Shown in pieces: positions 149-19,828 of a stretch of 20,064 bases of DNA (positions are counted from its first letter, which is position 1; the number at the start of each line of letters is the position of its first letter). The stretch comes from a virus. The notes under the pieces are model-generated. The model did not search any database. It was not told the DNA's origin and was given only the letters and a program-made list of their open reading frames with translations. Both the position numbers and the translations under genes were made by a program. The stretch is taken from positions 1-20,064 of the IMG/VR virus record IMGVR_UViG_3300006810_000562. One strand, 5' to 3'.

Positions 149-361
149 ATGGAATCAACTTATGAATTATTTGATTTAGCTTATTCATTGAATGAAATGG
201 ATAACTTTATTAAAGCTAATGGTGAAGAGGCATATATAGATGCTGTTTACCACGGTGCTTTTAGTGATCTTTATATGAGTATTCTGCATCCTAATGATAC
301 AGTCAGCTCTAATCCAAATTTTGATATATACTTTAGAGCATTTAAGAATGCTTATGTATAA
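149..361 (+). CDS. Small acidic protein of unknown function
   Basis: This 70-residue protein is acidic and predicted mostly helical, with no cysteines, no signal peptide and no membrane segment. I do not recognise a family. The ATG follows an A-rich leader with no Shine-Dalgarno motif, which matches other starts in the window. It is flanked on both sides by non-coding DNA with inverted repeats, so it may be a transcription unit of its own or lie inside a longer RNA element. The reading frame is intact and its composition (many D, E, N, Y, F) matches neighbouring phage genes. No function is assigned. Confidence 0.6.
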   Translation: MESTYELFDLAYSLNEMDNFIKANGEEAYIDAVYHGAFSDLYMSILHPNDTVSSNPNFDIYFRAFKNAYV

Positions 362-700
362 TATTTAAGTTTCCGGCCATTTATACTTACTAAAATATAC
401 TTAAGTCAGATTGAGGTGATAGAATATATTTGGCGGAAACTTCTTATATTAGCTATATAATACTATCTGTTTCAGATAACAGAGGAGTTGGTAGCAAGAG
501 ATAAGGAATATAACGGTAAGTTGAGACTCCTTGAGAGGTAGCCTATAGACTGTGGACAAGCCTTATGCCAAGAATAACAGAAGATACACTTATTTTTAAG
601 TGGGTAAGCTTCCTTAGTTCTGTTATAATTATCTCGTGACCATTTGTAAGTAATTCCCAGGGAGACACCTTATACGTAGGTTTTACAGATGGTGCTAATA
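362..700 (+). other. Non-coding stretch with nested inverted repeats, possible structured RNA
   Basis: About 340 bases have no credible gene on either strand but hold several complementary pairs: 367-378 with 432-442 (AAGTTTCCG core), a tight hairpin at 464-478 (TATCTG, TTT, CAGATA), 483-488 with 526-531 (AGGAGT/ACTCCT), and 574-582 with 618-626 (ATAACAGAA/TTCTGTTAT) enclosing a hairpin 587-602 (CACTTA/TAAGTG). A strong terminator follows at 701-736. This arrangement suggests a structured transcript. I looked for group I intron core elements and tRNA T-arm or acceptor patterns and could not establish either. The class is unknown. Confidence 0.4.
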
Positions 701-736
701 AATACTACCTGTTGAAGTAGACAGGTAGTATTTTTT
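701..736 (+). terminator. Intrinsic terminator
   Basis: A perfect 12-base-pair stem (AATACTACCTGT at 701-712 and its complement at 721-732) encloses an 8-base loop and runs directly into T residues to 736. It lies 12 bases before the next ATG, so it ends transcription of the preceding non-coding stretch. Confidence 0.85.
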
Positions 737-748
737 AAATATAAACAA

Positions 749-928
749 ATGAAAAGGAAATTTAAGAGAAGTTATAGAGAAGAATATCTTATAATGTTAA
801 GGTTTGCTTTGACGTTTACCGGATTAACATTATTAGTGATGTTCTTTAATATTCTGATTGCTTCAATTTGTGCATTTGGTGCACTGATATTTTGGAGCTT
901 TGTAATTAAAACCAATAAATACAATTAA
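749..928 (+). CDS. Small membrane protein, two predicted helices
   Basis: A 59-residue reading frame starts 12 bases after the terminator. The first 16 residues are strongly basic (K/R-rich) and are followed by two hydrophobic stretches at about residues 17-34 and 35-53, with a short polar KTNKYN tail. This is the pattern of a small inner-membrane hairpin protein with a cytoplasmic basic head. The stop is followed after one base by the next ATG, so it probably shares a transcript with the gene at 930. No family is recognised. Small membrane proteins in phage early regions often act on host membranes or superinfection, but nothing here shows that directly. Confidence 0.6.
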   Translation: MKRKFKRSYREEYLIMLRFALTFTGLTLLVMFFNILIASICAFGALIFWSFVIKTNKYN

Positions 929-929
929 T

Positions 930-1082
930 ATGATTATTACACACTTGATTCAGCAAATTCACGATCTTTGTGTACACCTTTATAATGAAGGTTTAGACAA
1001 AGAAGAGTGGGAACACTATGAAGACTTATCAATAGAAGAATTAGAAGATATGATTCGTAGATTAAAGTTACAAATGATTTAA
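930..1082 (+). CDS. Small acidic helical protein
   Basis: This 50-residue frame begins one base after the stop of the membrane-protein gene and ends ten bases before the next ATG, so it fits neatly into the operon. The protein is acidic in the middle (runs of E and D around residues 25-40) and ends in a basic amphipathic segment (MIRRLKLQMI). It looks like a small two-helix protein, perhaps a protein-interaction module. It has no cysteines or membrane segment and no recognisable family. The tight fit between neighbours is the main reason for calling it. Confidence 0.55.
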   Translation: MIITHLIQQIHDLCVHLYNEGLDKEEWEHYEDLSIEELEDMIRRLKLQMI

Positions 1083-1092
1083 AATTGAAAAG

Positions 1093-1371
1093 ATGAAAAC
1101 ACATTTTGCTACTAAAGTAGTTATCACAGATGGTCAGAGAATGGTTAGTAACCATGTAAGTCCTAAAAGAGCTGAAGTACAGGCTGAAGTTAATTCAAAT
1201 AAAGTTGATATTGACTATTCTGTATTTGAAAAGACTCAGGAAGAGAAGAATGAGCTAAGAATTGAAAAAGCTCATTATAAACTCTCTCCTGAAAAAGGTA
1301 GAGATGAACTGTTGTCGGCATTTATAGACAGCACTTTGCCTAATTGGAATCTTACTTTTATTGTGAAGTAG
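1093..1371 (+). CDS. Hypothetical protein, 92 residues
   Basis: The first half of this 92-residue protein is probably beta-rich and basic (KTHFATKVVITDGQ region). The second half is charged and helical (about residues 50-85, many E and K). No catalytic motif or known family is seen. The gene starts ten bases after its upstream neighbour and is followed after 22 bases by an intrinsic terminator, so it closes the small operon running from 749. The start is the first ATG in the frame and is preceded by an A-rich leader. Confidence 0.6.
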   Translation: MKTHFATKVVITDGQRMVSNHVSPKRAEVQAEVNSNKVDIDYSVFEKTQEEKNELRIEKAHYKLSPEKGRDELLSAFIDSTLPNWNLTFIVK

Positions 1372-1393
1372 GATTGTTTGTTCCATAAGCATG

Positions 1394-1425
1394 AAGAGGT
1401 ATCATTAAGTTGGTACCTCTTTTTT
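1394..1425 (+). terminator. Intrinsic terminator
   Basis: A ten-pair stem with one G-U wobble (AAGAGGTATC 1394-1403 with GGTACCTCTT 1412-1421) has an 8-base loop and a run of T to 1425. It closes the 749-1371 operon. Confidence 0.85.
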
Positions 1426-1445
1426 GTATTTAAAAACTATAAACT

Positions 1446-1694
1446 ATGAAAATCACATTATTAATATTGAGCCTGTTTTTGGCTCAGCAAGCAGAAGAAA
1501 TTAAGTTTAATCAACTTATAGAAGAAGGAATAATTATACCTACAGAAAAGTATGAGCAATATGGTTATACAGATAGACCCACTTATACTTTATTTGATAC
1601 TGATACCACAGTAATAGAATATGCATATAAAGGAGAGATTAAAGAGTGGATCCGCACAGGAGAATTTGAGTACAATGATTTCTTAAAAGATTAA
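1446..1694 (+). CDS. Small protein with N-terminal hydrophobic segment, possibly secreted
   Basis: This 82-residue protein starts just behind a terminator, so a promoter should lie between 1426 and 1445 or just upstream. Its first residues (MK, then ITLLILSLFL, then AQQAEE) resemble a short Sec signal peptide with possible cleavage near residue 14, or a short membrane anchor. The remainder is acidic with several Tyr and Thr. There is no lipobox cysteine. The next gene follows after two bases. The family is unknown; export is an inference from the N-terminus only. Confidence 0.55.
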   Translation: MKITLLILSLFLAQQAEEIKFNQLIEEGIIIPTEKYEQYGYTDRPTYTLFDTDTTVIEYAYKGEIKEWIRTGEFEYNDFLKD

Positions 1695-1696
1695 TT

Positions 1697-1933
1697 ATGC
1701 ATTCTATAAAACAATTAAGACAAAGACAGTCAGAAATTGAAGATATGCATGAGCAGATTAGTCTAAATGAACCTGAACATGCATACAAACAGATGATACT
1801 AGATGATCTTGAAGAAGAATATTATACTATTCAAGACAAGATAAATAGTATTAGATTTCAGAACGGAGCTTTGTTAGTATCAGTATCATTTCTTGTATTA
1901 ATTTTATGTTTATTAGCATGCGTGAGAGATTAG
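1697..1933 (+). CDS. Coiled-coil protein with C-terminal membrane anchor
   Basis: Residues 1-52 of this 78-residue protein are highly charged, rich in E, Q and K with heptad-like spacing, and probably form a coiled coil. Residues 56-75 form one hydrophobic helix, followed by only a few residues (CVRD). This layout is a tail-anchored membrane protein with its soluble part in the cytoplasm, superficially similar in layout to small phage spanin or lysis-accessory proteins, but without evidence for that role. It follows the previous gene by two bases and overlaps the next one, so it is co-transcribed. Confidence 0.55.
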   Translation: MHSIKQLRQRQSEIEDMHEQISLNEPEHAYKQMILDDLEEEYYTIQDKINSIRFQNGALLVSVSFLVLILCLLACVRD

Positions 1934-2349
1934 AAATAACACCCGAATTAGCACAAAAGTGTCTTGATGATATATTAGACCACAGAAATGCTTTTGATAT
2001 TAAATGCTTTTTGATGGATATATTATCTCATGAAGAAGCGTTAAGTAAATTTGTAGAGATATATCTAGGTAAAGAATATCCTACAATTCCAGAAGTTGAC
2101 ACTCAAGGAGATATAACAGTTAAAGTACTTAAAGAAAGAATGTATGATTCTGTTGCTAGAGATAAGTATCTTAACTCTGACCTTGTTGTCAATGATAAAA
2201 TTCCAGTTAAAGTAAAGAAATGGAGAGGTATACATAAATATTGTCCTTTAGATGTAATACTGCCTGATATTCCAAATGAAAATATGTCTGATATCAGAAA
2301 AGAACTTAGTATTGATCTTGAGGATTTTAATGAGCATGCACCTTTTTAA
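1918..2349 (+). CDS. Hypothetical acidic protein, about 143 residues
   Basis: The frame allows two starts, at 1906 and 1918. I prefer 1918 because it gives the smaller overlap (16 bases) with the preceding gene and a natural N-terminus (MRERLEIT); 1906 would add four residues. The N-terminal half is predicted helical (about residues 1-55). The rest includes a basic patch (VKVKKWRGIHK) and an acidic C-terminus. No known domain is recognised. Two hairpins behind the stop end the operon that begins at 1446. Confidence 0.6.
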   Translation: MRERLEITPELAQKCLDDILDHRNAFDIKCFLMDILSHEEALSKFVEIYLGKEYPTIPEVDTQGDITVKVLKERMYDSVARDKYLNSDLVVNDKIPVKVKKWRGIHKYCPLDVILPDIPNENMSDIRKELSIDLEDFNEHAPF

Positions 2350-2354
2350 AAGAA

Positions 2355-2372
2355 ACAGAGGCCGATCTCTGT
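2355..2372. repeat. Small hairpin behind the 1918 gene
   Basis: ACAGAG (2355-2360) and CTCTGT (2367-2372) form a six-pair hairpin with a GCCGAT loop, six bases after the stop codon. It is followed by a GT-rich, partly T-rich stretch. It may help termination or protect the transcript end together with the larger hairpin at 2391-2423. Confidence 0.4.
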
Positions 2373-2390
2373 GTTGTGTTTTAAATCAGG

Positions 2391-2520: not shown

Positions 2521-2787
2521 ATGTATTATCAGTTACCGAATGGTAAAACCATATATTTAACTATAGAGGAATATCTTAATCTTACAGATGCTGATATACA
2601 ATACTTGGTCTCCCTTAATGTAGGAGAATCTGTCTTAAACCCTTTTAAAGGTTCTGTTGTTAACAAAAGTGGAAAGAATAAAACTTATGACTTCACATTT
2701 ACTGATGAAGATGAAGATAGCCACGAGAGTGATAACATGTACCCCTTTGATGATATAGTTGATCTGTCAGACAACTTGGATATATAA
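2521..2787 (+). CDS. Small acidic protein of unknown function
   Basis: This 88-residue protein begins MYYQLPNGKTIYL, a short beta-like start, followed by a helical stretch (TIEEYLNLTDADIQYL) and then a strongly acidic C-terminal third rich in D, E and S. The tail resembles a DNA-mimic or a partner-binding acidic tail, but nothing more specific is visible. The stop codon lies inside an inverted repeat (2784-2815). It appears to be the first gene of a short operon with the 2912 gene. I do not recognise the family. Confidence 0.6.
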   Translation: MYYQLPNGKTIYLTIEEYLNLTDADIQYLVSLNVGESVLNPFKGSVVNKSGKNKTYDFTFTDEDEDSHESDNMYPFDDIVDLSDNLDI

Positions 2788-2815
2788 TATTGCATATCGC
2801 GATTAGCAATATTAT
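2784..2815. repeat. Ten-pair inverted repeat over the 2521 gene's stop codon
   Basis: ATAATATTGC (2784-2793) and GCAATATTAT (2806-2815) are perfect complements around a 12-base centre that itself holds the palindrome ATCGCGAT. The left arm overlaps the TAA at 2785-2787. No T run follows, so a standard terminator is unlikely. A processing site or an operator for the 2912 gene is possible. Confidence 0.45.
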
Positions 2816-2911
2816 CACCTTACCTATTGAGAATGAGTAACTTAATGGTATAGTAAACAATCTACTCAAAAACAAATCAATTAATTTTTTTAACAATTTA
2901 AACTTAAAGTT

Positions 2912-4659: not shown

Positions 4660-5748
4660 ATGCAGAGAGAAGAAATACAAAAACAAGCCTTAAACGCAAC
4701 TTTAAACTTAAGTAGATCAGGATTAGCATTAGGTACAGGTGTGGGTAAGACTTTAGTTGGTTTATCTCATGCAGAAAGAGAACACGCTGGGTTAAAAAAT
4801 GTTTTAATTGTAGCACCTAAGTTGAGCATATTAGATAGTTGGAAAGAAGAGGCTAAAAAGCATAAAAAAGAACATGTTTTAGGAAATGCTGAATATACAA
4901 CTTACTTAAGCTTAAATAAAAAAGACCCTAATGCTTATGATATTATATATCTTGATGAGTGTCATAACTTATTAGATTCTCATAAAGAGTTTTTGAGCAA
5001 GTATAAAGGAATGATATTGGGTTTAACAGGTACTCCACCAAAAAGAGATTATTCTGAAAAAGGTCAGATGGTAAATAAGTTCTGTCCTATAGTATATACT
5101 TATGGTGTAGATGATGCTGTTAGTGATAATATTCTAAATGACTATAGAATAGTAGTTCATATGGTACCTTTAAGCACAGAAAATAACATTGATGTTGCTA
5201 CCAAAGCAAGGTCATTTAAAACTTCTGAAACAAAAAACTATAGTTATTGGTGTAGTAGAATTGATGGTGGTAAAACACCTAAGCAGCTACAGATGGCTAG
5301 AATTATGAGGATGAAAGCTATGATGGACTTTCCAAGCAAAGAAGCTTATGCTAAAAAGCTAATGGAGTCTATTTCAAGTAAGTGTATTATATTTGCTAAT
5401 ACTCAAGATCAAGCAGATAGAATGTGTAAGCATTCTTATCATAGTAATAATCCTGATTCAGAAAAAAATCTTGTTATGTTTAAATATGGTGACATAGATA
5501 AGCTATCTTGTGTACTTCAATTAAGTGAGGGTGTGAATATTCCTAACTTAAAACAAGGTATTATTATGCACGCATATGGTAATGAGAGAAAGTCTGCTCA
5601 AAGAATTGGTAGATTATTAAGACTTAACCCAGATGAAACAGCTATAGTACACATACTTTGTTATAGTAATACTATAGATGAAAAGTGGGTAGAGTCTGCA
5701 CTTGAGTCATATGACAAAGACAAAATATTTTATAAACAATATGTATGA
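4660..5748 (+). CDS. Superfamily 2 DNA helicase (SNF2/DEAD-like)
   Basis: This 362-residue ATPase has the SF2 helicase motifs in order: Walker A GTGVGKT at residues 25-31, motif Ia around VAPKLSILDSW (51-61), a DECH box at 99-102, TGTPP at 123-127, a second-domain motif IV CIIFANT, motif V near LSEGVNIP and motif VI QRIGRLLR at 314-321. It is compact compared with cellular helicases and has no extra accessory domains. Enzymes of this type translocate on DNA and can unwind forks or recombination intermediates; crAss-like phages carry SNF2-type helicases in this module. The stop overlaps the next start (ATGA). The exact subfamily is not certain. Confidence 0.9.
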   Translation: MQREEIQKQALNATLNLSRSGLALGTGVGKTLVGLSHAEREHAGLKNVLIVAPKLSILDSWKEEAKKHKKEHVLGNAEYTTYLSLNKKDPNAYDIIYLDECHNLLDSHKEFLSKYKGMILGLTGTPPKRDYSEKGQMVNKFCPIVYTYGVDDAVSDNILNDYRIVVHMVPLSTENNIDVATKARSFKTSETKNYSYWCSRIDGGKTPKQLQMARIMRMKAMMDFPSKEAYAKKLMESISSKCIIFANTQDQADRMCKHSYHSNNPDSEKNLVMFKYGDIDKLSCVLQLSEGVNIPNLKQGIIMHAYGNERKSAQRIGRLLRLNPDETAIVHILCYSNTIDEKWVESALESYDKDKIFYKQYV

Positions 5749-6239
5749 GCAACACAGCTAAAACAATCCATTTAGTTAGAGCATTAGTTAAGATATCTAG
5801 TGCTTTAACTGATATGGATAAAGTTATTTATGGAGATGATTTAAAGTTTAATCTTAAAAAAGACTTGCCTAAGTTTCAAAGCAAGCTAGAAATAGTAATT
5901 GATGAACCTTCAAAGATTTTATTAAAATCAGATTCTACTGTATTGACTCATCTAATAAATGTTTTTGATGACTTTTCAGAATTAGTTTATGTTAAAAATG
6001 ATTATATCACAAATGTGAATTTATTTTTAGCAAAGATTACTTCTGCTAATAATGATTTAGAAAAATTGCAGACTAGTGACGCTCATTATATAAAAGCTTT
6101 GAGAAGTTTAATAAGTGGATTCTTAGACAAGAAATATCTAAATCAATTTACAACATGGGAAGATCCGGAAGGTAATACTTTTTATTCTTTAATAAAGAAA
6201 TTAGAAGATATTACTAATGAATACGTAATTACAAAGTAA
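5745..6239 (+). CDS. Hypothetical helical protein after the helicase
   Basis: This 164-residue protein is predicted almost all alpha-helical, with alternating hydrophobic and charged residues, no cysteines and no nucleotide-binding or metal motif. Its start overlaps the helicase stop by four bases (ATGA), so translation is coupled. The pairing suggests a helicase partner or regulator, but this is only from position. The following ClpS-like gene begins five bases after its stop. I do not recognise a family. Confidence 0.6.
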   Translation: MSNTAKTIHLVRALVKISSALTDMDKVIYGDDLKFNLKKDLPKFQSKLEIVIDEPSKILLKSDSTVLTHLINVFDDFSELVYVKNDYITNVNLFLAKITSANNDLEKLQTSDAHYIKALRSLISGFLDKKYLNQFTTWEDPEGNTFYSLIKKLEDITNEYVITK

Positions 6240-6244
6240 TAACA

Positions 6245-6502
6245 ATGGAAGATGATTTTACACACCAACTGATTTTAAAAAATGATAATGACAATGACTT
6301 TCTTTTTGTAATGGCTTGTCTTGTAAATGTATGTGAGCATGCACGAGACCAAGCAGAACAATGTGTAATAATAGCACATAACAGAGATGAATGTCAAATA
6401 AAAAGAGGAGATATCACTAAGATGATAGAGTTACATGGTTTGCTTGATGATCTTGGTATAAAAACTGAAATAAGAGAATATGAAAGTAGTTTGCATAAAT
6501 GA
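6245..6502 (+). CDS. clpS-like: ClpS-like ATP-dependent Clp protease adaptor
   Basis: This 85-residue protein aligns without gaps to the ClpS core fold. It begins with LILKND at 9-14, then a helix (FLFVMACLVNVCEH, 19-32), then AEQCVIIAHN (37-46) and a final alpha/beta part up to about residue 79. Asn13, Asp14 and His45 match E. coli ClpS Asn34, Asp35 and His66, which hold the N-terminal amino group of N-degron substrates. The CEH..QAEQC pattern is like Bacteroidota ClpS. ClpS delivers substrates to the ClpA/ClpC unfoldase with ClpP. The ClpA-binding N-terminal extension is very short, so it might block rather than deliver. A phage copy suggests redirecting host proteolysis; that is inference. 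Confidence 0.8.
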   Translation: MEDDFTHQLILKNDNDNDFLFVMACLVNVCEHARDQAEQCVIIAHNRDECQIKRGDITKMIELHGLLDDLGIKTEIREYESSLHK

Positions 6503-6743
6503 TAAGAATAAACCTAAGCAGATTCCTTTTAATAAATGGATTAAAGAAGGAGAACAGTACACTGTTATCTTTGCTACTCCATTAAACATTCAGAAAAATA
6601 AATTAGGTTATCAGTTAAAGGAAATAGATTTAGATGAGTCTTGTTTTCCTTATCACTATTTTGATTCTAGTAGATTTAAAGAACTAGATACATCTTCAGC
6701 AGTTAAAGCAGAAGAACAAGAAATAGATTTACAAGAAATTTAA
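6480..6743 (+). CDS. Small hypothetical protein (MKVVCI type)
   Basis: This 87-residue protein starts MKVVCINDKNKP, then IPFNKWIKEGEQYTV and a LGYQLKEIDL segment, and ends in an acidic Glu-rich tail after about residue 65. Short proteins with this start and a W-IK-G-Y-V core are common in Bacteroidota phages and prophages, and look like a small beta-barrel (SH3-like), but no function is established to my knowledge. It overlaps the ClpS-like gene by 23 bases. I kept this start because the MKVVCI beginning is typical of the group. Confidence 0.65.
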   Translation: MKVVCINDKNKPKQIPFNKWIKEGEQYTVIFATPLNIQKNKLGYQLKEIDLDESCFPYHYFDSSRFKELDTSSAVKAEEQEIDLQEI

Positions 6744-7398: not shown

Positions 7399-7453
7399 GC
7401 ATAATATTAAACCTGTAGGGTTTAAAACTATATTTGCTGAAGAAGGATGTTAA
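7328..7453 (+). CDS. Possible basic 41-residue protein overlapping its neighbours
   Basis: An open frame of 41 codons starts inside the 3' end of the 7204 gene and stops at 7451-7453, four bases inside the next gene (ATGTTAA). The product is very basic (KKRRAIRHNIKPVG centre) and ends GC. In its favour, it fills the otherwise empty 48 bases between two genes and couples to the radical SAM start. Against it, the overlap of 71 bases is longer than any other here. I give it low confidence. Confidence 0.3.
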   Translation: MKVGRIKTLKTYKEELLKKRRAIRHNIKPVGFKTIFAEEGC

Positions 7454-8289
7454 GTAAAGTAAACAGAAAAAGTTTAAAAATTAAAACATCAGGTAGATCT
7501 ACAGATTATTTAACACCATCTTTTATATTTGGTTGCGGATTTAACTGTAGTTACTGTTACTGTAAACGTCACGTACACAGTGGGTTAACAGCTGCTACTA
7601 ATGTAGAAGAGATTCTTACAGAAGTTGATCACCATGCTTGGTTTGCAGATGTAGAAAAGCCTAATCAAACTCATAAAGAGTATGTTACTTATGATATAGG
7701 TTGTAATACTGATGTAGCTTTACACTATAAACATTTAGAATGGGATAAAGTTTTTGACTTTTTTAAACAACATCCAAGAGCAATGGGTTCTTTTGCAACA
7801 AAATATGTAAATGAAAAGTTGCTTGATTATGATCCTGAAGGTAAGATGAGAATTAGATTTAGTCTTATGCCTCAAAAATATGCTGATGTATTAGAACCTA
7901 ATACTTCTAGCATAGTTGAGAGAATTAATGCTATATCAAAATTTCAAGATGCTGGTTGGGATGTCCATGTAAATTTCAGTCCTGTGGTTGTTACCAATGG
8001 ATGGTTAGATGAATATAAAGGTTTATTTGAGCTTCTGCCTGTTAATGAAAAAGTTAAAGCAGAAGTAATATTTCTTACTCATAATTTAGGAAGACATATT
8101 TTTAACTTAAAAAATAATCCTGAAGGAGAAGATTTATTATGGAGACCTGAAATTCAAGAAAATAAGGTGTCTCAGTATGGAGGAGAAAACATCCGGTATA
8201 AACGTGATTTAAAAGCTCACTATATAAAACAATGGACGCAGCTCCATGATGAGATAATTCCGTGGAATACAATAAGATATATATTTTAA
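7447..8289 (+). CDS. Radical SAM protein, spore photoproduct lyase (SPL/SplB)-like
   Basis: This 280-residue protein carries a radical SAM cluster CxxxCxxC at Cys30, Cys34 and Cys37, inside a GCGFNCSYCYCKRH stretch preceded by DYLTPSFI, as in the spore photoproduct lyase / DNA repair photolyase family. Cys86 in IGCNTD lies where the SPL hydrogen-donating cysteine (Cys141 in B. subtilis) would be expected. SPL reverses thymine spore photoproduct in DNA using a 5'-deoxyadenosyl radical. Length is slightly below the usual 330-340 residues, the N-terminal part being short. In a phage the substrate is unknown: DNA damage repair or a modified base are both possible. Confidence 0.75.
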   Translation: MLSKVNRKSLKIKTSGRSTDYLTPSFIFGCGFNCSYCYCKRHVHSGLTAATNVEEILTEVDHHAWFADVEKPNQTHKEYVTYDIGCNTDVALHYKHLEWDKVFDFFKQHPRAMGSFATKYVNEKLLDYDPEGKMRIRFSLMPQKYADVLEPNTSSIVERINAISKFQDAGWDVHVNFSPVVVTNGWLDEYKGLFELLPVNEKVKAEVIFLTHNLGRHIFNLKNNPEGEDLLWRPEIQENKVSQYGGENIRYKRDLKAHYIKQWTQLHDEIIPWNTIRYIF

Positions 8290-8867: not shown

Positions 8868-9140
8868 ATGGAAAAGTTAAAGAAGATATTATTAGGAATG
8901 GGTTATTTAACCTGGATGATCTGCAACCTTGCAGTGGTTTATGGAATAGGATGGGCAGCAATGAAGTTATTAGAATCTGAATCAGTAGGAGAATTTTTAC
9001 TGAAGCTTGCTGGTGGTATGGTCACAGTGTTGATAATGGTAATACTGAGCATTCTATGTTTAGGTTTGGTTGCAATGCTTTTTGGAGATCAAAGAATGGA
9101 GAGTAAATTGGATGATTTCTTTGACAAAATGAATATTTAA
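8868..9140 (+). CDS. Membrane protein with two predicted helices
   Basis: Hydrophobic segments of this 90-residue protein lie at about residues 7-34 and 43-73, joined by a short charged loop (LESESVGEF), and it has an acidic amphipathic C-terminal tail (SKLDDFFDKMNI). It follows the secreted-protein gene after 13 bases. Size and shape fit a small inner-membrane protein; holin-like topology is conceivable, but nothing in its neighbourhood (no endolysin seen) supports it. No family is recognised. Confidence 0.65.
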   Translation: MEKLKKILLGMGYLTWMICNLAVVYGIGWAAMKLLESESVGEFLLKLAGGMVTVLIMVILSILCLGLVAMLFGDQRMESKLDDFFDKMNI

Positions 9141-9186
9141 AACAAAACAAAGATGATACATTTAATGGAACATAAACTTTAAAAAC

Positions 9187-9558
9187 ATGCAAGGATTCGG
9201 ATTAATAAAGGGATTTGATATGTCAATGATTACAGATGAAATGCTTTATGCTCAAAATGGGCGAGAATATTTGTGGAGACTATCACCTCAAGAAAAAGAA
9301 AATAAAAGATTAGGAAATCTTTATAGTATGTACCTCTCAGCAGTAAAAATGTATGGCAAAGACAGTAATGAAGCTAAAGAAGCTTATGACAATTTACCTA
9401 AAGAAGCTAAGGTTTGGAGAAAAGAATTTAGAAGATGTGTTAAACCTCCAAGAGAGGTGTGGGCATATGAATTTATGATTCATCTTTCTAAAGGAAGTTT
9501 AACTTCAGAAGCTCTTGATTTAATAAGTATTAAATTAAACCAAAACAAAGATGACTGA
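9187..9558 (+). CDS. Hypothetical helical protein, 123 residues
   Basis: The protein is basic to neutral, Lys/Glu-rich and predicted largely helical. An early region (EYLWRLSPQEKENKRL) is followed by a YSMYLSAVKMYG helix and a WRKEFRRCVKPPREVW segment rich in Arg and Trp. No catalytic motif or known domain is seen. An internal ATG at residue 12 is an alternative start. The stop overlaps the next start by eight bases, so it heads a three-gene run to 10250. The family is unknown. Confidence 0.6.
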   Translation: MQGFGLIKGFDMSMITDEMLYAQNGREYLWRLSPQEKENKRLGNLYSMYLSAVKMYGKDSNEAKEAYDNLPKEAKVWRKEFRRCVKPPREVWAYEFMIHLSKGSLTSEALDLISIKLNQNKDD

Positions 9559-9799
9559 AAAAGAAGTACAACTATTAGGATTTGAAAGAAGAGATGAATC
9601 TGAAGAACCTAATCCATACTATTATTATGTCTACAAAATTGTGGATGGGGTAGATTTTATCACCTCTGCTAATGATGAAGTAGAGAATGGAGAATGGTCA
9701 GTAGAATTTTTAGAGGCCAACCCTAAGATAATATTTACAAAATTTGAAGAAGTTCAAGCATTAATTAATTTGCTTACAAAAAGAATTAAATATGATTGA
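9551..9799 (+). CDS. Small acidic protein (LGF type)
   Basis: This 82-residue protein has the start MTEKEVQLLGFERRD, a Tyr-rich strand (PYYYYVYKI), an acidic middle and a final helix (FEEVQALINLLTKRI). Small proteins with an early LGF motif and a C-terminal 'F..v..li' helix are widespread in Bacteroidota phages, with no known function. It overlaps both neighbours by eight bases, which indicates translational coupling. Confidence 0.6.
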   Translation: MTEKEVQLLGFERRDESEEPNPYYYYVYKIVDGVDFITSANDEVENGEWSVEFLEANPKIIFTKFEEVQALINLLTKRIKYD

Positions 9800-10250
9800 T
9801 TTACTAAAAAAGTATAAAGATGGTACCTTAACATTAGGTACTTTTAAAAGATGTAAAAGGCTGGTTAAAGACTTAACAAAAAGTCAGTTTGATATAATAG
9901 ATGACCAGATAAGAGCGTATATAACAAAAGGAGGATCTTACCATTTTATGCTCTGGCAATATTTAAAAGGAGATAAAAGACCAGAAGTTTGTAATGTAGC
10001 TTTGGTATCAGAAATATTTATTTACAAAGAGATTGGTTTAATAACAGAAGAAGAGATGGAAAGAATGATTAGTCTTTTAGCATCTGATGATGAAGATAAC
10101 TTCTTTATAGGACTTACTACCTTTGAATATTTCTATAATAATTTAGATGATAAGGCTAAGAAAAACAAAAAGAAGTATCTGATAAAGAATCAGGATGAGA
10201 TATTTAAAAACATTATGAAGTTAAAAAAAGAAGAAATCGTTTCACATTAA
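9792..10250 (+). CDS. Protein with SxDxxNxxxxL motif, unknown function
   Basis: The N-terminal half of this 152-residue protein is basic and helical. Residues 85-117 contain a motif of the form LLASDDEDNFFIGLTTFEYF that recurs in the products of the genes at 17921 and 18294 (LLSNSEEDFTIGLESF and MATSKDEGNKFLALEML). These look like members of a short helical-repeat group common in Bacteroidota phages. The C-terminus is Lys-rich. The gene ends four bases into the convergent gene on the - strand (10247-10546). Confidence 0.6.
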   Translation: MIDLLKKYKDGTLTLGTFKRCKRLVKDLTKSQFDIIDDQIRAYITKGGSYHFMLWQYLKGDKRPEVCNVALVSEIFIYKEIGLITEEEMERMISLLASDDEDNFFIGLTTFEYFYNNLDDKAKKNKKKYLIKNQDEIFKNIMKLKKEEIVSH

Positions 10251-10546
10251 GCTTCTTTGTTATCTAAGTTATTAGAATATTCATCTAAAAGATCTTTACT
10301 CAGCTTTTCATTAATGATTGATAGCATAACAATAGAGGCAGCTTCTTTCCATGTTTCATCAACAATTTCTGATAATACATCTAAAGGAGTTGCTGTTTTT
10401 AATATTTCACCTGTTCTTATGTGAATATTAGTTCCGGCATCAGGATTTTTAACACTTACAAATGTAAGTCTAGTTATGTGTGCAACATTCAGTCTTTCAA
10501 AGTATCTGGAACCATCAGCATCTCTAAATTCAACTCCTATAAACAT
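10247..10546 (-). CDS. Small beta-type protein on the - strand
   Basis: This 99-residue protein has an N-terminal half that reads as short strands (FIGVEFRDADG, NVAHITRLTFV, TNIHIRTGEILKTATPL), similar in layout to small FlbD/SwrD-like barrels: strand-rich, with a T-x-x-G-E-I turn. The rest is helical with an acidic end. It is transcribed against its neighbours: its 3' end overlaps the + gene at 9792 by four bases, and its start faces the + gene at 10580 across 33 bases. A different expression time from the main + transcript is likely. Confidence 0.6.
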   Translation of the reverse strand: MFIGVEFRDADGSRYFERLNVAHITRLTFVSVKNPDAGTNIHIRTGEILKTATPLDVLSEIVDETWKEAASIVMLSIINEKLSKDLLDEYSNNLDNKEA

Positions 10547-10579
10547 GAAACTTCTTTTATTATAAATATAATATATTAT
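10547..10579. promoter_or_regulatory. Divergent gap between a - and a + gene
   Basis: These 33 A/T-rich bases separate two divergent starts, so promoters or leaders for one or both genes must lie in or around it. A perfect 14-base palindrome (TATAATATATTATA) occupies 10567-10580, ending on the first base of the + gene's ATG. It could be a binding site, but A/T-only palindromes arise easily by chance in DNA this AT-rich. Confidence 0.3.
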
Positions 10580-10957
10580 ATGCTAACAGTAAAATTAATT
10601 AAGAAAAACGGCAAGCTTGACTATGTTGATAAAAAAGATAAAGTCAAGTATAATTTGTTCTTAGATAAAGTATCTGAAGGAGACACTGTTGAAATATTTT
10701 TTAATATTCAGACAGATAAAGCTTCAACAGCTCAAATATCTAAAGTTCATGCATGCATAAGACACATAGCAAAAGAACTAGGTTATTCTTTTGATGATAT
10801 GAAGTCTATGATAAAAATGAAGTCAGGTCTAACATTTTTAGATGGAGAAGATAATGTAATTAACAAATCTTTTGCTGAATGTTCTAAAGATGAAATGAGT
10901 TTGACTATACAAACTTGTGAAGATATAGCAAGAGATAATGGAATTATTCTTGGGTAG
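10580..10957 (+). CDS. NinB-like recombination protein (tentative)
   Basis: This is a 125-residue protein starting MLTVKLIKKNGK. The frame is open upstream to 10421, but that extension lies inside the - strand gene, so I chose 10580. The pattern is an N-terminal beta part, then KASTAQISKVHACIRHIAKELGY (about 52-74), a KMKSGL segment, and KSFAECSKDEMSLTIQTC. This order resembles NinB/Orf-type single-strand DNA recombination mediators of phages, where an Arg/Lys-Ser-x-x-Gln-x-x-x-helix is followed by a similar C-terminal helix. Location among replication genes agrees. The call is weak at sequence level. It ends 14 bases inside the next - strand gene. Confidence 0.5.
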   Translation: MLTVKLIKKNGKLDYVDKKDKVKYNLFLDKVSEGDTVEIFFNIQTDKASTAQISKVHACIRHIAKELGYSFDDMKSMIKMKSGLTFLDGEDNVINKSFAECSKDEMSLTIQTCEDIARDNGIILG

Positions 10958-18304: not shown

Positions 18305-18605
18305 TTTCACAAAAGAAGAATGGGAGAACTTGTATGCTATGGCTACTTCTAAAGATGAAGGAAACAAATTCTTAGCATTAGAGATGCTCAAAGATACAAA
18401 AAATGAGGCAGACCTTGTATTGTATGATTTTCTTAAAGATGTAGGTAATAGTGATACCAGAATAATGGGAAAACTATCTAATCTTGATGATATAAAACTA
18501 TGTGAGTTTATATTAGGCAAGTTTTTAATGATGAAAATGCAATGGTATTTTTCATTTAGTTCTTTTAAGGCAGAATCTATTACAGTAAAATTAAAAGAGA
18601 GATGA
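18294..18605 (+). CDS. Small protein with SxDxxN motif, unknown function
   Basis: This 103-residue protein carries the module FTKEEWENLYAMATSKDEGNKFLALEML (about 5-32, SKDEGN centre), as in the gene before it and the gene at 9792. The remainder is helical with two aromatic stretches, and ends basic (KLKER). The start is 11 bases inside the preceding gene and the stop overlaps the metallopeptidase start (ATGA). It looks like a paralogue of the gene before it, and may have arisen by duplication. No function is assigned. Confidence 0.6.
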   Translation: MKSDFTKEEWENLYAMATSKDEGNKFLALEMLKDTKNEADLVLYDFLKDVGNSDTRIMGKLSNLDDIKLCEFILGKFLMMKMQWYFSFSSFKAESITVKLKER

Positions 18606-19828
18606 GTAAAGAAATTAGTTTAAGTAAGATCAGTAAAGATCTTATTCTGAAAGAGCCTTTTTACGGGTTCTTTCTTATTATGTTGAATAAAGTTTGGAGA
18701 AAAGATGTTCCTACAGCAGGTGTGTCTAAGAATGGTATTAATTACCAACTTGCAATCAATGAAGAGTTTTGGAATTCTTTAAGTGATGACCATAAAACAG
18801 GTTTGCTTAAGCACGAGCTATTACATATAGCATATTTTCATTTAACTAAAGTGTTTGAATTTCCTGACAGAAAGCTTGCTAATATAGCAATGGATATGGA
18901 AATCAATCAATATATTGATGACAGCTTACTTCCTGAAGGCGGTATAGATATAAAAAATTATCCTGAGCTAAATCTAGATGAAAGAGCAGGTACCAGATAT
19001 TATTATGAAGAGCTTCAAAAAGCTAGAGATAAAAAGAATAAGAATGGTACTTCAGGCTGTCCTAATTGGGATAATATGTGTGATGCTTTAGATAATGGAA
19101 ATCCTTCTGCTATTTGTCAAACAGGATCAGGTCAAGAAGAAACTCAGATTCCAGGACATGGGACTTGGGAAGAGTTTGAAAATCTTCCTGAAGCTGAAAA
19201 GAAGATTATGGAAAAGCAGTTAGCTAAAGTTCTTAATGAAGTTTCTAAACAAACTGAAAAATCTAGAGGTACTATACCAGGATCAATCAAAGATTGGTTA
19301 CTAGAAATGGATAAGTTAGAACCAGCTAAGTTTAATTGGAAAGCTTATCTAAGAAGATTTACCGGAACTTCTACAAAGATTTTTACTAAGAAACTTAGAA
19401 GAAAGGAAAACAAAAGATTTGCTGATAATCCAGGTCTTAAAATTAAAAAGAAACAAAGGCTTCTTCTTGCCATAGATACTTCAGGTTCTGTATGTGATGA
19501 AGAACTTAAAGAGTTTATGAATGAGATTCATCATATCTATAAAATGGGTATTGAGGTCACTGTTATTCAGTGTGACACAACCATTAGATCTATTGATGAG
19601 TATAAAGGAGATTTGCAAATTAATATTGCAGGTAGAGGCGGAACCATGTTTGATCCTGTCTTAGAATATTTTAATGAAAACTATAAAAAGTTTACAAGCT
19701 TAATTTATTTTACAGATGGTGAGGCTCCTGCAAATGTAAAACCTAGAAACAGAATGTTATGGGTTTTGTCAGAGCGGTCATATATGAATGACGCTTTACC
19801 AGGTCATGTAATAAGATTAGAATTATGA
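18602..19828 (+). CDS. Zinc-metallopeptidase/VWA protein, DUF2201-like
   Basis: The N-terminal domain of this 408-residue protein has HELLH at residues 71-75 (LLKHELLHIAYFH) and a downstream IAMDMEINQYI block (95-105) that may supply a third metal ligand, the pattern of DUF2201 metallopeptidase-like domains. A Lys/Glu-rich linker (about 140-280, with a short disordered acidic part) leads to a VWA domain: LLLAIDTSGS with DxSGS at 292-296, Thr348 (GRGGTMFDP) and TDG at 371-373, so all MIDAS parts are present. In bacteria such proteins work with MoxR-type AAA+ ATPases. A start of another gene follows at 20018, whose product I cannot name. Confidence 0.82.
   Translation: MSKEISLSKISKDLILKEPFYGFFLIMLNKVWRKDVPTAGVSKNGINYQLAINEEFWNSLSDDHKTGLLKHELLHIAYFHLTKVFEFPDRKLANIAMDMEINQYIDDSLLPEGGIDIKNYPELNLDERAGTRYYYEELQKARDKKNKNGTSGCPNWDNMCDALDNGNPSAICQTGSGQEETQIPGHGTWEEFENLPEAEKKIMEKQLAKVLNEVSKQTEKSRGTIPGSIKDWLLEMDKLEPAKFNWKAYLRRFTGTSTKIFTKKLRRKENKRFADNPGLKIKKKQRLLLAIDTSGSVCDEELKEFMNEIHHIYKMGIEVTVIQCDTTIRSIDEYKGDLQINIAGRGGTMFDPVLEYFNENYKKFTSLIYFTDGEAPANVKPRNRMLWVLSERSYMNDALPGHVIRLEL

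Follow-up and report, generated by a model that had tools for sequence, protein, structure and literature searches.

A ClpS-family gene without its N-terminal extension is conserved in a phage lineage distantly related to crAss-like phages

Introduction

ClpS is a bacterial adaptor that selects proteins for degradation according to their first amino acid. What can a ClpS protein do for a phage if the part used for delivery is missing? In E. coli, the N-terminal extension of ClpS threads into the ClpA channel, where pulling remodels ClpS and releases the substrate, and blocking entry of the extension inhibits delivery (PMC9663308). The window analysed here is the whole 20,064-nucleotide stretch, a 20 kb viral fragment, and it carries a short gene whose product was originally predicted to be a ClpS-like N-degron adaptor with its extension nearly absent. 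Here we examine the identity of this gene, its neighbourhood and history in related phages, and the roles that its product may play during infection.

Results

The 85-aa product is, with near certainty, a member of the ClpS family. In the HMM search that the original prediction had proposed as a check, it matched the Pfam ClpS family (PF02617) over residues 6–60 at 33.9 bits (E 2.7e-8), above the curated cut-off of 23 bits, and each of the 14 sequences in the phage alignment matched the family by itself. A phmmer search of PDB sequences with the single 85-aa sequence gave no match, whereas a profile of 78 relatives retrieved ClpS; a comparison with PHROGs gave no significant match for the protein, and the window had no megablast match among phage records. 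The protein aligns without gaps to the ClpS core, at a constant offset of 21 from E. coli ClpS, which places Asn13, Asp14 and His45 on E. coli Asn34, Asp35 and His66, exactly as predicted, and puts Phe19 at the position of the hydrophobic gatekeeper (E. coli Met40). In 78 cellular ClpS proteins of the Bacteroidota type, almost all of them from Bacteroidota, the Asn-Asp pair, Phe and His do not vary. The expected Bacteroidota-type motif is present as well, though with the spacing CEH-x3-QAEQC and not the two-residue gap first given.

Structure prediction, the second check proposed, likewise returned a ClpS topology: an AlphaFold2 model built from 78 aligned sequences had a pLDDT of 91.3, and its top structural matches were all ClpS. 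The closest solved structure was a plant ClpS (7d34; Z 15.1, rmsd 1.2 A over 78 residues), followed by those of E. coli and Caulobacter (Z about 13–14), with the related L7/L12 fold well behind (Z 9.8). Because the input alignment contained cellular ClpS, the fold is supported in a way that is not wholly independent of homology.

We found the gene in a conserved place (Table 1). Across the clade formed by the window and its closest relatives, an SNF2-type helicase gene is followed by clpS, mostly by an overlapping or close gene for an 87-aa protein, then by a uracil-DNA glycosylase gene and, further on, dnaB. The same neighbourhood recurs in many contigs at about 40–60% protein identity, and host contamination of the contig was rejected on the strength of this synteny. 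In this sample the 87-aa gene was confined to clpS-bearing contigs (8/8 loci among the helicase relatives), and its product had no match in Pfam or phage records. It was rejected as a strict ClpS partner, since contig L030 has clpS and lacks the 87-aa gene; the 164-aa protein was rejected as a partner because it is not conserved across the clade.

Table 1. Coordinates of genes discussed in the text, in the window and in related contigs
Sequence	Feature	Coordinates	Strand	Basis or remark
Window	SNF2/ResIII-type helicase, conserved upstream neighbour of clpS in the clade	4660..5748	+	Pfam ResIII and Helicase_C, synteny, helicase tree
Window	164-aa protein between helicase and clpS	5745..6239	+	in part of the clade: homologues in L027–L029, L031–L033
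Window	clpS-family gene without N-terminal extension	6245..6502	+	85 aa; ATG start, TGA stop
Window	87-aa protein	6480..6743	+	start overlaps the end of clpS by 23 nt
Window	Spore-photoproduct-lyase-like radical SAM protein	7447–8289		Pfam SPL, E 9.6e-25; conserved in L019, L054
Window	DUF2201 metallopeptidase and VWA protein	18602–19828		Pfam; widespread in phages
L027/L028	Uracil-DNA glycosylase gene	8961–10640		in two parts about 1 kb apart
L048	ClpS	2684–2905		
L179 (L088 contig)	ClpC/ClpA-like double-AAA+ ATPase	247–2379		711 aa
L180 (L079 contig)	ClpC/ClpA-like double-AAA+ ATPase	331–2388		686 aa
L181 (L064 contig, 465 kb)	Clp ATPase	1183–2352	-	

Several other genes of these contigs deserve mention in their own right. 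The radical SAM protein encoded downstream of clpS is possibly a DNA-repair enzyme of the same module. In L027 and L028, the uracil-DNA glycosylase gene looks as if it were split by an intron or inserted element. The widespread DUF2201/VWA protein goes under the label "HNH endonuclease" in PHROGs and in a number of records, despite its Pfam peptidase and VWA domains.

The near-absence of the extension was borne out by comparison of start sites. Only 12 residues precede Asn13 in the window ClpS, against 33 in E. coli, so that it has no extension able to enter the channel of a Clp ATPase. The same 12 residues separate the initiator Met from the Asn-Asp position in nearly all of the window's closest relatives (the tail-less group: L002, L016–L033, L048–L050, L189–L192 and L242), with 10 in L190 and 7 in L048. 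Other phage copies of the Bacteroidota type have their Met 23–31 residues before Asn-Asp, mostly 26, and cellular copies with an assignable start have 24 or more. Upstream of the window's ATG the frame stays open for 8 further codons only, with no ATG, GTG or TTG among them; stops close the upstream frame within 2–8 codons in the window, L019, L026 and L030, and the window, L016, L029, L031 and L033 have no other start codon upstream. An upstream start that would restore a normal tail was rejected on the basis of the window, L019, L026 and L030, as was fusion with the upstream 164-aa protein, which is absent beside clpS in L016 and L019, where the helicase gene ends just before clpS. Five contigs (L023, L025, L189, L191 and L192) do have a further in-frame ATG upstream, lying within the helicase gene, but a start at the conserved ATG of the MEDxKTH-like motif is simpler. 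That a phage lineage has lost the extension is well supported.

The shortened gene is under purifying selection. Among unsaturated pairs, dN/dS was 0.11–0.34, so the gene is maintained in its shortened form.

The survey of related phages called for in the original prediction recovered clpS both in the tail-less clade, with a conserved place after the helicase, and in long-tailed relatives. In ClpS trees the tail-less copies form one clade, with support of 99/89 in one tree and 90/82 in another of only 76 columns. The better-resolved helicase tree places every clpS phage on one side (98/64) and groups 14 tail-less rows as a clade at 100/97; the other part holds three long-tailed phages together with tail-less L048, which groups with long-tailed L054, possibly through a second tail loss or a long-branch effect. 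Among 55 helicase relatives, those nearest the window have a tail-less clpS adjoining the helicase gene, L230 has a long-tailed clpS in that position, and L238 has one, also long-tailed, roughly 3 kb away from its own 87-aa gene. No clpS lay within the fetched loci of 47 of the 55, and seven of those 47 contigs (110–120 kb) had no ClpS match anywhere. The tail was lost within these phages, since relatives that share the replication module still have a long-tailed ClpS, and the simplest history that the trees suggest would be one ancestral long-tailed clpS whose tail was lost at the base of the window's clade. Acquisition of clpS from Bacteroidota, followed by vertical inheritance in the phage lineage, is the best explanation of its origin.

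The lineage appears to consist of phages distantly related to crAss-like phages. The best matches of the window's DnaB are in Crassvirales, and its helicase matches Flavobacterium and Bacteroides phages. Relatives of the crAss major capsid protein were weak (about 25% identity, E 5e-7 to 4e-5) and found in three of five group contigs; no capsid gene was identified in the 20 kb window. Within the likely host class, clpS occurs in 125 of 149 Bacteroidia genomes, and Clp_N ATPases occur in all 14 likely-host genomes sampled. Four clade contigs of 86–114 kb contained no match to ClpP or Clp AAA_2, so any partner of the phage ClpS is probably the host's.

Discussion

Across the whole clade the extension that E. 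coli ClpS uses for delivery is missing, which makes a delivering role doubtful; of the predicted N-degron adaptor, the family, the pocket residues and the missing extension stand, while the delivering adaptor is in question. With the core kept and the extension lost, the protein should bind without delivering. Our leading reading, put forward tentatively, builds on this core without extension and on a partner that is probably the host's: the phage ClpS would bind N-degron proteins and/or the adaptor-binding site on host ClpC/ClpA, would compete with host ClpS, and would damp or redirect host Clp turnover during infection. In this proposal we infer the binding of N-degrons and of host ClpC/ClpA, the failed delivery and the benefit to the phage. 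A decoy, which had been offered as an alternative role, seems to fit better than a delivering adaptor. The sharper version, in which the phage encodes an inhibitor of a bacterial N-degron pathway, we consider rather unlikely: here ClpS would have evolved into a dominant-negative form, its tail lost in the phage lineage, and would shield N-degron proteins or occupy host ClpC/ClpA during infection. Dependence on the extension is established for E. coli ClpA, and its carry-over to Bacteroidota ClpC/ClpA would be by analogy.

The clade also shows changes in and around the pocket that bear on a second reading, in which the ClpS fold has been repurposed: the core would be kept for binding some other phage or host protein, and N-degron and Clp binding would be vestigial. 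The pocket His is replaced by Asp in L022, L026–L029 and L031–L033 and by Asn in L048 and L190, and L048 has Arg-Ser in place of the Asn-Asp pair, in a gene that nonetheless stays open and selected. Near the pocket, Thr18 has become Asp and Asp20 has become Leu or Gln, and in helix alpha-3, which lies on the side of ClpS that contacts ClpA in E. coli, the cellular Pro62 is Glu or Asp in 11 of 12 clade members. The E. coli ClpA-contact residues of this helix (Glu79, Glu82 and Lys84) are conserved neither in the window nor in cellular Bacteroidota ClpS, where the host partner differs. Because sister proteins replace the His and one lineage has lost Asn-Asp, N-degron binding may not be the trait that the clade preserves, which counts against a simple N-degron decoy; what the members share may instead be docking on the host ATPase, or a new function. 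Against repurposing, the window ClpS retains every pocket residue, and Asp or Asn could still accept a hydrogen bond from the alpha-amino group; we regard it as unlikely. The ClpS of L048, L049 and L050 is the most degenerate that we observed, combining the shortest start, Arg-Ser and Asn in an open, conserved gene.

It is quite unlikely, in our judgement, that the protein is a working adaptor that brings N-degron proteins, of host defence or of the phage, to host ClpCP/ClpAP for degradation. This would be possible if Bacteroidota ClpC did not need the extension, or if a phage partner such as the 87-aa protein supplied it. The window's intact pocket is consistent with such a role, a delivering role has been proposed for phage ClpS (PMC7824862), and in mycobacteria ClpS still regulates ClpC1 when the ClpC1 N-domain is missing (PMC6274998), so coupling to ClpC can differ from coupling to ClpA. 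The restriction of the 87-aa gene to clpS-bearing contigs also favours a partner, but the short-tailed contig L030 does without it. Moreover, cellular Bacteroidota ClpS proteins keep their 24 or more residues before Asn-Asp, so the hosts' system seems to use a tail, and none of the clade has one.

A functionless passenger, whether a recent host capture or host contamination of the contig, is very improbable even though ClpS is common in Bacteroidia, as we found both conserved synteny across divergent contigs and purifying selection (dN/dS well below 1), and the tail-less phages group together in the helicase tree as well as in that of ClpS.

If the non-delivering reading is true, these phages have evolved a truncated ClpS like a biochemist's non-delivering control, and a degradation adaptor has become a brake. 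Such a protein would be a natural probe for the little-studied Bacteroidota N-degron pathway, and its existence would point to a role for N-degron turnover in phage infection. For comparison with the tail-less ClpS, the long-tailed copies of related phages are ready to hand.

Comparison with known systems

The original prediction knew of no described phage role for ClpS, which does not hold: searches with E. coli ClpS (tblastn) found annotated clpS in many proteobacterial jumbo phages (among them PA5oct, GAP32, Atu_ph07, SCTP-2 and Phosso), whose proteins have been proposed to bring targets to host ClpAP (PMC7824862), and ClpS is discussed among the seven Clp proteins of Atu_ph07 (PMC6102473). 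In the open literature we found no experiments on the ClpS of crAss-like or other phages. Bacteroidota-type ClpS was itself present in about 295 IMG/VR viral stretches and in three phage records of 635–642 kb. Phage ClpS as such is thus not new, and the tail-less clade with its conserved locus is the distinctive part. The jumbo-phage proteins resemble the window's in being phage-encoded, with several lying near phage ClpX or heat-shock genes, but they stem from a capture of their own, placed with E. coli in the tree, mostly keep the extension (some have a longer one) and belong to much larger genomes.

Huge phages with Bacteroidota-type ClpS (L003, L064, L079 and L088) are nearer in kind, yet keep the 26-residue stretch before Asn-Asp, with ClpP and/or a ClpC-like ATPase encoded as well in three of these contigs. 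The ATPases of the L088 and L079 contigs begin near the D1 module with no Clp_N match, and the former has a ClpC-like UVR motif; the contigs of L079 and L064 encode ClpP as well. These findings suggest that the phages encode a ClpCPS set of their own, with an ATPase that lacks the domain on which ClpS usually docks. In the L064 contig, intein-like sequence appears to interrupt the Clp ATPase just ahead of the second Walker A motif.

In the tree, the phage copies fall within cellular Bacteroidota ClpS, and they share with them the fold, the Asn-Asp pair, the Phe gatekeeper, the His and the C-x-H-x3-QAEQC motif, at roughly 30–43% identity. The window's copy differs from them in its lost extension, in its clade's changes at positions 18 (Thr to Asp), 20 (Asp to Leu/Gln) and 62 (Pro to Glu), and in its place within a phage replication module. 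With the E. coli ClpS-ClpA-ClpP system (PMC9663308), the window ClpS has in common the predicted core fold and the residues that bind the alpha-amino group; unlike E. coli ClpS, it has neither a channel-entering extension nor the conserved ClpA-contact residues.
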